This document shows, in pieces, positions 10,024-12,363 of a stretch of DNA of 64,000 bases. The notes below the pieces were generated by a model that saw only the letters and a list, made by a program, of their open reading frames with translations, did not search any database and was not told the origin of the DNA. The DNA is from Agrococcus terreus (GTDB taxonomy: Bacteria > Actinomycetota > Actinomycetes > Actinomycetales > Microbacteriaceae). The DNA is taken from NCBI RefSeq assembly GCF_014645235.1, contig NZ_BMLM01000002.1, positions 124,001 to 188,000 of the forward strand, in the 5' to 3' direction. A program made the position numbers and the translations under genes. Every line of letters begins with the position of its first letter. Position 1 is the first letter of the stretch.

Positions 10024-10572
10024 ATGGGCCTGCTGCACGTCCGCGAGGACATCGAGAACGCCAAGCGGCACGACCCGGCCGCGCGCGGATCGCTGACGAT
10101 CGCGCTGACGTACTCGACCCTCCACGCCGTGTGGGCCCACCGCGTCAACCACCGCCTCTGGCACGCCGGCGCGCGCTCGCTCGCGCGCGCCGGCAGCCAG
10201 TGGGCGCGCTTCATGACGGGCGTCGAGATCCACCCCGGCGCCCGCATCGGCCGTCGCTTCTTCATCGACCACGGGATGGGCGTCGTGATCGGCGAGACCG
10301 CCGAGGTCGGCGACGACGTGATGCTCTACCACGGCGTCACGCTCGGCGGCACGGCCCGCGGCGCCGTGAAGCGCCACCCGACGATCGGCGACCGCGTGCT
10401 CGTCGGCGCCGGCGCGAAGGTGCTCGGCGCGATCTCGCTCGGCGACGATGTGAAGGTCGGCGCGAACGCCGTCGTGCTGCACTCGTTCCCGGCGGGCACG
10501 ACGCTCGTCGGCATCCCGGCCGTCCCGGTCGAGCGCGGGACGCCCACCGGGCTCATCGAGTACGTCATCTAG
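10024..10572 (+). CDS. cysE: Serine O-acetyltransferase
   Basis: Transfers acetyl from acetyl-CoA to serine, giving the CysK substrate. The 182-residue protein is the short SAT form: a brief N-terminal helical region (residues 1-65, starting [20 protein letters not shown]) followed by left-handed beta-helix hexapeptide repeats, including [11 protein letters not shown], the catalytic-site [12 protein letters not shown] and HGVTLGG. A strong ribosome site (GAGAGGGAGG) precedes ATG. It lacks the longer N-terminal domain of E. coli CysE (273 residues), which is common in Gram-positives. Confidence 0.95.
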
Positions 10573-10590
10573 CGGCTCGCGCCGCCTCGC

Positions 10591-10711
10591 CTCGAGTGGC
10601 GCCGACTCCTGCCGAGTGGCGGCGATCGGCGCCGAGTGGCGGCGATGTGCTGGCGATCGCCGCCACCGTCGACCAGATGCCGCCACTCGAGACCGGATGC
10701 CGTCACTCGAT
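10591..10711. repeat. Cluster of five GAGTGGCGGC-type repeats
   Basis: Three direct copies of the motif (C)CGAGTGGCGSC at 10591, 10611 and 10631 (the latter two share 16 identical bases, GCCGAGTGGCGGCGAT) face two inverted copies, ATGCCGYCACTCGA, at 10677 and 10697. The cluster fills the space between convergent cysE and the SMR gene and includes the SMR stop codon. It could fold as a terminator or be a low-copy intergenic repeat family. Confidence 0.7.
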
Positions 10712-11185
10712 GCGGGAGCCGCGGCTGGGCGGCGGCGTGGTCAGGCCGCGGGCCCCCCGGTCGGAGGTCGGGGCCGCGGGCGCCGCGGGCTTCGGCGCCG
10801 TGAGCTTCAGGCCGATGACCGCGGCCACGATGACGGCCACGAACAGCACCGTCCACCACGAGAACGCCTGCGCTCCCGTCGCGATCGCCCACCCGACCGT
10901 GAGCGCGGCCCCGAGCCCGACCCACACCGCGTAGGCGGTGCCGATCGGGATGCTGCGGGCCGCGCGCTCGAGGCCGATCATCGAGAGCACGATGCCGATC
11001 GCGAAGACCACGGTCGGCACGGGCTGCGTGAGGCCCTGCGACTCCCCGAGCGCCGTCGCCCAGACCGCCTCCAGCACGGCCGAGACGACGAGCACGATCC
11101 AGGCCGATCGGCCCGCGGCCGCCGCCCGCGCGTCGCCCCCCGGGACGCCGGCGCTCCGCGCGCCGCCCGACTGCGCCCCGGCCAC
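10703..11185 (-). CDS. SMR-family efflux subunit B (Gdx/SugE type), extended ends
   Basis: Second subunit of a probable heteromeric small multidrug resistance transporter exporting guanidinium or small cations. From GTG at 11185 the protein has 160 residues: a ~27-residue Gly/Ala-rich N-terminal extension, four membrane helices, and a ~35-residue C-terminal tail. The core has the conserved glutamate in VLEAVWATAL and the GTAYAVWVGLGAA motif of the SugE/Gdx branch. Its start overlaps the stop of the other SMR gene (TAGTG). The tail runs into a repeat cluster, which supplies the final codons and the stop. A later internal start near the first helix is also possible. Confidence 0.85.
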   Translation of the reverse strand: MAGAQSGGARSAGVPGGDARAAAAGRSAWIVLVVSAVLEAVWATALGESQGLTQPVPTVVFAIGIVLSMIGLERAARSIPIGTAYAVWVGLGAALTVGWAIATGAQAFSWWTVLFVAVIVAAVIGLKLTAPKPAAPAAPTSDRGARGLTTPPPSRGSRIE

Positions 11186-11499
11186 TAGGCCACGACCTTC
11201 AGGCCGACGACGGCGGCGACGAGCACCGCCAGCAGCAGGATGCGCACGAGCGTCGCGCGCTCGGCGCGCGTGACCATCGCCCAGCCGGCGGTCGCGGCTG
11301 CGCCGATCCCCACCCACACCGCATAGGCGGTGCCGGTCGGGATCGTGAGCATCGCGAGCGCCAGCCCGGCCATGCTCGCGACGAGCGCGATGCCGAAGAC
11401 GACGGTCGGGCGGCGCTTCGTGAAGCCCTCCGAGCGCGAGAGCGCGATGGCCCAGACCGCTTCGAGCAGTCCGGAGACGATGAGGACGAACCAGTCCAT
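11185..11499 (-). CDS. SMR-family guanidinium-type exporter subunit A (Gdx/SugE type)
   Basis: 104-residue, four-helix SMR transporter. The proton/substrate glutamate is Glu13 in GLLEAVWAIAL, and GTAYAVWVGIGAA in helix 3 matches the Gdx/SugE subtype instead of the EmrE subtype. Paired, overlapping SMR genes usually form antiparallel heterodimers. A GGAGG ribosome site lies 8 bases upstream of ATG, and directly before that lies a guanidine-III riboswitch fold, which makes guanidinium the likely substrate. Regulation would be ligand-induced translation. Confidence 0.9.
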   Translation of the reverse strand: MDWFVLIVSGLLEAVWAIALSRSEGFTKRRPTVVFGIALVASMAGLALAMLTIPTGTAYAVWVGIGAAATAGWAMVTRAERATLVRILLLAVLVAAVVGLKVVA

Positions 11500-11521
11500 G
11501 ACGAAGACCTCCAGTGGTGGT

Positions 11522-11560
11522 CAGTCTTGTCGCTGTGCGGGTACTGCGCCCTCGTCCGCA
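11522..11560 (-). promoter_or_regulatory. Guanidine-III (ykkC-III) riboswitch
   Basis: Read on the minus strand, the leader contains CGGACGAGG, then GCGCAGTACCCG, then CAG-CGACAAGAC, the conserved blocks of the guanidine-III class. Two helices form an H-type pseudoknot: P1 TGCGG (11560-11556) with CCGCA (11540-11536), and P2 CAGT (11546-11543) with ACTG (11525-11522). The stems differ from the sequence I remember for Thermobifida fusca but keep pairing, i.e. they covary. The GGAGG ribosome site lies 9 bases downstream, so translational control is likely. Confidence 0.88.
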
Positions 11561-11607
11561 GGCCTGTCTGGGCCTGCCCCCAGGGTAGCCGAGCCCCAGC
11601 GCGGCGG

Positions 11608-12363
11608 CTAGGGCCTGCGACCGCCGAGCGCTGCCGTGACGCGGTCGGCGGCCGCGACGACGTCGTCGACGAGCGCCTCGCACGCCTCGCGCGTGAGCCG
11701 CAGCGTCGGCCCCATGACGGTGAGCGCGCCGACGAGCTGCGCGTGCGCGTCGAACACCGGCGCCGAGAGCCCGCTCGCCGCCTCCACCCGCTCGCCCGTC
11801 GTGATCGCGAAGCCCTGCGCGCGCGTCGTCGCGACGACGTCGCGGAGCGACTCGGCATCGGTGATCGTCGACGCGGTGAGCGCCTCGAGCGGCCCGCCCG
11901 CGACCTGCTCGAGGAGCTCGTCGCTCCAGGCGAGGATGACGCGGCCGGCGCTGCCGACGTGGAGCGGCTGGATGCGCCCGACGTACATGTCGCGCTTCAG
12001 TCCGTGGCGGGTCTCGGCGACGCCGACGCACACGCGCGCCAGGCCCTCCGGCCGGAAGAAGCACGCCGTCTCGCCTGTCGCGTCGCGGAGCGCCGTGAGC
12101 TGGGGCGAGAGCAGCTCGCCGAGGTCGCGCGTGCGCGCCGCGGGACCCGCCCAGTAGGCCATCCGGGCGCCGATCGCGTAGTCGTCGCCGACGCGGTCGA
12201 GGAAGCCGTGCTCGACGAGGTTGTGGAGCAGTCGGTGCGCCGTCGAGGCGGGGATGCCCGTCGCGCGCCGCACGTGCGCGGCGGTGAGGCGCGGACGCTC
12301 GAGCGTGAAGGCGTCGAGGATCGCGGCGATCTTCGCGAGCACGAGCAGCGGCGCATCGGACAT
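11608..12363 (-). CDS. IclR-family transcriptional regulator
   Basis: 251-residue regulator: N-terminal winged helix (about 8-70, with LTAAHVRRATGIPASTAHRL as the recognition region) and a C-terminal IclR effector domain (about 80-248) that normally binds a small organic acid or CoA-derived ligand. It is divergent from the GntP permease with a 122-bp spacer containing a candidate operator, so it probably controls the permease/CoA-transferase/lyase genes. TACGAT six bases before ATG suggests a leaderless transcript. Confidence 0.92.
   Translation of the reverse strand: MSDAPLLVLAKIAAILDAFTLERPRLTAAHVRRATGIPASTAHRLLHNLVEHGFLDRVGDDYAIGARMAYWAGPAARTRDLGELLSPQLTALRDATGETACFFRPEGLARVCVGVAETRHGLKRDMYVGRIQPLHVGSAGRVILAWSDELLEQVAGGPLEALTASTITDAESLRDVVATTRAQGFAITTGERVEAASGLSAPVFDAHAQLVGALTVMGPTLRLTREACEALVDDVVAAADRVTAALGGRRP

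Follow-up and report, generated by a model that had tools for sequence, protein, structure and literature searches.

EbrAB and YkkCD are examples of SMR exporters that are encoded by paired genes. According to the accessible parts of one review, paired SMR proteins assemble as heterodimers, the large majority of them with opposite Arg/Lys bias, and about 20% of the Gdx proteins are paired (PMC9574504). In the published view of the guanidine-III riboswitch, as it stands in the available sections of two sources, the stabilised pseudoknot frees the ribosome binding site (PMC5696562, PMC12186494), and in the accessible part of the first of these C6, G7 and G17 contact the ligand in the T. fusca structure (PMC5696562). 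Here we describe a locus that joins a riboswitch of this class to paired SMR genes in a stretch of 64,000 nucleotides from Agrococcus terreus (contig NZ_BMLM01000002.1), referred to below as the window. We consider it very probable that the locus is a guanidine-sensing translational ON switch placed before a two-gene guanidinium exporter.

Results

The adjacency of the aptamer and the two SMR genes is directly established. All of these elements lie on the minus strand, downstream of an IclR-type regulator gene (11608-12363) whose stop codon is 29 nt from the aptamer. The first SMR gene (11185-11499, ATG start) encodes subunit A of 104 aa, and the second (10703-11185, GTG start at 11185) encodes subunit B of 160 aa; the two reading frames share one base, with the stop of the first and the GTG of the second read from TAGTG. 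A first-pass annotation had placed the system at 11185-11562; this interval contains the whole of the first SMR gene and the greater part of the aptamer, and it lacks the aptamer's 5' end (11563-11578) and almost the entire second gene.

An Rfam scan of the whole window returned a tRNA and one other match, RF01763, which scored 40.4 bits (gathering score 36, E 5.8e-05) at 11578-11516 of the minus strand. Membership in the guanidine-III class, which had been proposed beforehand, is therefore an observation of this covariance scan, and one guanidine-III site was found in the genome. The three conserved blocks that had been noticed at first sight are all there, CGGACGAGG at 11558-11550, GTACCCG at 11544-11538 and GACAAGAC at 11531-11524, with an ACGA core at 11552-11555 and an intact GACAAG strand at 11531-11526. 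The predicted ligand contacts, mapped by eye, are kept as C 11554 (C6), G 11553 (G7) and G 11544 (G17), and we infer from the sequence that the aptamer binds guanidine. P1 joins GCGG (11556-11559) to CCGC (11537-11540) and is lengthened in the window by a U-A pair, 11560/11536, to UGCGG (11560-11556) and CCGCA (11540-11536). P2 joins CAGU (11543-11546) to ACUG (11522-11525); it has only four standard pairs in succession, a feature that we count against our explanation. A 5' hairpin, P0 (GCAGGCC/GGCCUGC, 11558-11577), is predicted in the leader fold and has -13.2 kcal/mol when folded as a hairpin only; its three outermost pairs occupy bases that are also required by P1.

For comparison with related loci we searched 299 genomes of the host family, and 146 of them had the riboswitch at E up to 0.001 (138 above the cut-off). 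The 147 loci obtained were followed by one SMR match in 96 cases, by two in 39 and by none in 12. Two pattern searches added 100 class-wide loci, of which 60 were given and 40 were chosen among the matches listed. After removal of 11 repeats there were 236 loci, and 31 without the core under a loose rule were set aside, including 21 G-C pattern matches that had no SMR gene and a C-G locus that had one. Of the 205 core-bearing loci that were kept, 187 have SMR genes after the aptamer.

Covariation was assessed on these 187 exporter-linked loci; five could not be parsed and were dropped, and the remaining 182 gave 36 distinct stem combinations. All 36 kept the variable P1 pair, compared with a mean of 19.6 and a maximum of 28 in 500 shuffles, and 35 kept the variable P2 pair (shuffle mean 17.5, maximum 26), with the limit that such stem shuffles leave the relatedness among loci in place. 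The extra U-A pair of P1 is not conserved (6/36, under the shuffle mean of 10.2). Covariation of both stems is thus directly established, and the crossed order of P1 and P2 that the first-pass annotation had drawn is confirmed; the comparison supports, at the level of sequence, that both crossing stems are backed by compensatory changes among exporter-linked relatives. A chance match was ruled out by the above-threshold score, the recurring position before the SMR start codon and the covarying stems.

The stem had been described as unlike the Thermobifida prototype. This stood in so far as the outer P1 pair is G-C here, but the variant is not private to this genome. Among the core-bearing loci, 52 have a G-C pair, and in 51 of them two adjacent SMR genes follow; the sole exception, L163, was judged by eye to be a chance match, which leaves 51 sampled loci with the G-C variant, all of them before an SMR pair. 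One locus has G-U, also before an SMR pair. C-G loci are followed by one SMR gene in 128 cases, by a pair in 2 and by none in 17, and the five loci with other P1 stems have one SMR gene each. A pattern specific to the flipped P1 matched 40 of the 299 host-family genomes, and its reversed control gave none among the matches listed. In a second sample of 80 loci, picked by similarity to subunit A and overlapping the earlier set, G-C or G-U stood before an SMR pair in 7/7 cases, C-G before a single gene in 57 and before a pair in 7 (all Paenarthrobacter/Arthrobacter), and U-A before a single gene in 2; a regular expression found no aptamer in the other 7 (4 single, 3 paired). The two C-G pairs of the main sample, L202 and L203, belong to one genus and are perhaps of the same lineage as these seven.

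In the sampled actinomycetes, a G-C outer P1 pair is therefore a sequence marker of a two-subunit exporter, and the converse does not always hold. The literature that our search reached, with most subscription papers outside it, gave no link between P1 identity and paired exporters. The score of 40.4 bits is modest and is counted against our explanation; in the host-family search the scores of the 39 paired loci all lay between 29.8 and 49.5 bits, with 3 below the gathering score, while other members reached 63.3. The Rfam structure line for RF01763 does not mark P1 as a pair, and this is probably why the members with the flipped pair score low. A pseudoknot-aware covariance model might mend these scores.

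Other aptamers in the sample stand before genes of another kind. In ten loci (L054, L069, L081, L107, L118, L130, L132, L133, L144, L145) what follows the aptamer is an ORF that encodes a small membrane protein (about 85 aa), and no SMR gene. Two of these proteins were scanned and matched the NCBIfam model CBU_0592 with 38.1 and 37.1 bits against 25; the rest are alike by eye. This protein may be another guanidine transporter or a helper. In nine loci (L118, L130, L132, L133, L144, L220, L249, L143, L149) GACGAC replaces GACAAGAC with the loss of two GACAAG bases, and seven of the nine have no SMR gene downstream; these aptamers could form a variant class with altered ligand binding. One genome, G639, has two guanidine-III-like sites, with G-C before a paired exporter (L174, L228 being the two loci) and C-G before a non-SMR gene.

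The two overlapping SMR genes had been recognised correctly, with PF00893 scores of 68.3 bits for A and 57.6 bits for B against a cut-off of 23.7, and no other SMR gene was found in the genome. Their assignment to the Gdx-like subtype is upheld by the solved structures, among which both subunits are nearest to 6wk5, which we take to be Gdx-Clo. For A, 6wk5 was hit at E 1e-18 and the best EmrE entry at 8.1e-8; for B, 6wk5 was hit at E 1.8e-17, and 6wk5 and 8vxu were the only solved structures at E up to 0.001. Glu13, Trp16, Ser42, Tyr59 and Trp62 are present in both subunits, the roles of single Gdx pocket residues being in part our assumption. The residue at position 10 is Gly in 133/133 singletons and 53/54 A subunits, and Ala in subunit B; this subunit is also extended by about 26 aa at its N-terminus and ends in a long tail rich in Ala and Pro. 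Both proteins missed the cut-off of 126 bits of the NCBIfam SugE equivalog NF008512 (92.3 and 63.4), and the pair is for this reason not filed as a SugE equivalog; we take this model to be narrower than Gdx. The shortfall is counted against our explanation.

The same data bear on whether the pair could be a drug or biocide exporter of the Qac kind, with the riboswitch upstream by coincidence. Many NCBIfam Qac models match both proteins below threshold, and the Ala10 of subunit B departs from the near-invariant Gly. Against these points, SugE is the best NCBIfam model for both proteins, 6wk5 is far better than EmrE for A and is joined only by 8vxu for B, and Trp16, Ser42, Tyr59 and Trp62 are retained in both subunits; moreover, a coincidence sits poorly with guanidine-III aptamers that precede SMR genes in 187/205 loci. 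We regard a Qac-like exporter as most improbable and keep to a Gdx-like pair.

The two subunits have opposite Arg/Lys biases, which is directly established with loop limits placed by eye: -4 for A and +8 or more for B, the latter computed from an internal GTG start without the N-terminal extension, so that a start at 11185 would raise it. The predicted topology, from sequence, is N-out for A and N-in for B, and such opposite biases are as expected for an antiparallel heterodimer of fixed topology. Among related loci the mean bias is 1.02 for 133 singletons, -2.98 for 54 first subunits and +5.44 for 54 second subunits, and the signs are opposite in 53/54 pairs, the exception being L152 (0 and 3). 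That each protein might instead form a homodimer of its own is suggested by the checked pocket residues, which are present in both. This reading we consider very improbable, because the biases are opposite in nearly all pairs while singletons centre on +1, because first and second subunits fall mostly on different sides of well-supported branches, and because published pairs with opposite bias are regarded as heterodimers in the accessible part of PMC9574504.

The branches in question come from a poorly resolved tree of 166 SMR domains (54 pairs and 58 of the 133 singletons) over 103 columns. One branch (support 98) has 53/54 second subunits on one side; another (98) separates 53/54 first subunits, together with the second subunit of L151, from all 58 singletons. 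L151 is a long-branch outlier in this tree. In L128, a paired operon with a G-C P1, the first subunit lies among singletons (support 96) yet has a bias of -4, and a replacement of the subunit or convergence is possible. The split of first and second subunits across well-supported branches suggests an old duplication that was kept as a pair. It also means that the correlation between P1 identity and pairing can arise from few events, and the simplest reading of the sequences suggests shared descent of a paired cassette. The P1 flip and pairing need not be linked by function, as the tree allows few events and C-G pairs exist. It is improbable in our view that the G-C aptamer and the exporter pair have been inherited together as a cassette of mutually adapted parts; if this were true, the changed pocket of the second subunit (Ala or Ser at position 10), for example, may let the heterodimer export a wider range of guanidinium compounds, and the riboswitch may be tuned accordingly.

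In the minimum-energy fold of the leader, GACAAGACU (11531-11523) pairs with GGUCUU and GUC within 11509-11500, and CCA pairs with UGG. The competing hairpin so predicted (11500-11531, -13.1 kcal/mol alone) pairs four of the five bases of the Shine-Dalgarno GGAGG (11508-11512, 8 nt before the ATG). Because GACAAGACU also supplies the 3' strand to P2 and to the pseudoknot core, the hairpin and the pseudoknot are mutually exclusive. We compared 172 distinct leaders from the 187 loci over the stretch from the last GAC of the GACAAGACU strand to the start codon. The mean fold energy was -7.33 kcal/mol; it became -6.21 when the left parts were exchanged between loci (the best of 30 swaps gave -6.61) and -4.58 when the right parts were shuffled. 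This covariation within loci supports the hairpin that is predicted to mask the Shine-Dalgarno. Of the 165 leaders with a recognised Shine-Dalgarno, just 68 had half or more of it paired when folded in isolation, so masking is not evident at every locus. The whole leader of the window was only 1.43 sd below shuffles in fold energy, and 15/200 shuffles were at least as good. We count both results against our explanation.

Upstream of P1, TANNNT begins at -36 to -25 in 145 of the 205 core-bearing loci, compared with 1, 0, 5 and 6 of 205 in four control windows farther upstream; its absence from 60/205 loci is counted against our explanation. The window's own copy, TACCCT at 11587-11582 of the minus strand (28 nt 5' of P1, 20 nt after the stop codon of the IclR-type gene), is likely the -10 promoter box, judging from this recurrence. 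A simple scan for sigma-70 consensus promoters gave no site here, which likewise counts against our explanation. An intrinsic terminator was considered as the expression platform and none was found in 10560-11700.

Discussion

Guanidine-III control might act mainly on the stability of the mRNA, through a ligand-stabilised pseudoknot that would block RNase E, and less on ribosome access. The aptamer is close to the probable 5' end of the transcript, and a review of 2025 describes stability control for guanidine-III in its accessible part (PMC12186494). A competing hairpin that covers four of five Shine-Dalgarno bases and covaries across loci speaks for ribosome access, and we consider a mainly stability-based control unlikely. 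The two modes of control are not exclusive.

For control of translation, we infer the binding of the ligand, the switching, the coupling of the genes, the assembly of the heterodimer and the substrate, as follows. Transcription likely starts just past the -10 box. Without guanidine, GACAAGACU in the 3' half of the aptamer would pair with the Shine-Dalgarno region and with the nucleotides that lead up to the ATG, and ribosomes would be blocked. Guanidine would stabilise the P1/P2 pseudoknot and withdraw the GACAAGACU bases from the hairpin, and the freed GGAGG would allow the first SMR gene to be translated. The second gene is probably translationally coupled to it, because the two overlap by one base. 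Subunits A and B would insert in opposite orientations and form a fixed antiparallel heterodimer that moves guanidinium out in exchange for protons.

The locus is a genuine but ordinary find, as the aptamer and the exporter are both from known families, and it gives guanidine-III and the paired Gdx exporters one more well-supported member. The locus resembles paired SMR exporters of the EbrAB, YkkCD and MdtIJ kind in its adjoining, overlapping genes with opposite Arg/Lys bias, and the only difference seen is its guanidine-III control. With Gdx-Clo it shares the SMR family by sequence and E13, W16, S42, Y59 and W62 in both subunits. Gdx-Clo, however, has one subunit of dual topology, whereas there are two unequal subunits here, of which B has Ala10, the N-terminal extension and the long tail. 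With the guanidine-III prototype of T. fusca it has in common the H-type pseudoknot order of P1 and P2, the contacts C6, G7 and G17, the GACAAGAC strand and a site directly ahead of an SMR gene's ribosome binding site. It differs from the usual form in the outer P1 pair, G-C instead of C-G, and in the extra U-A pair, and from the solved structure in a P2 of 4 contiguous pairs compared with 7; in contrast to the prototype, the competing hairpin predicted here takes up the entire GACAAGACU strand.
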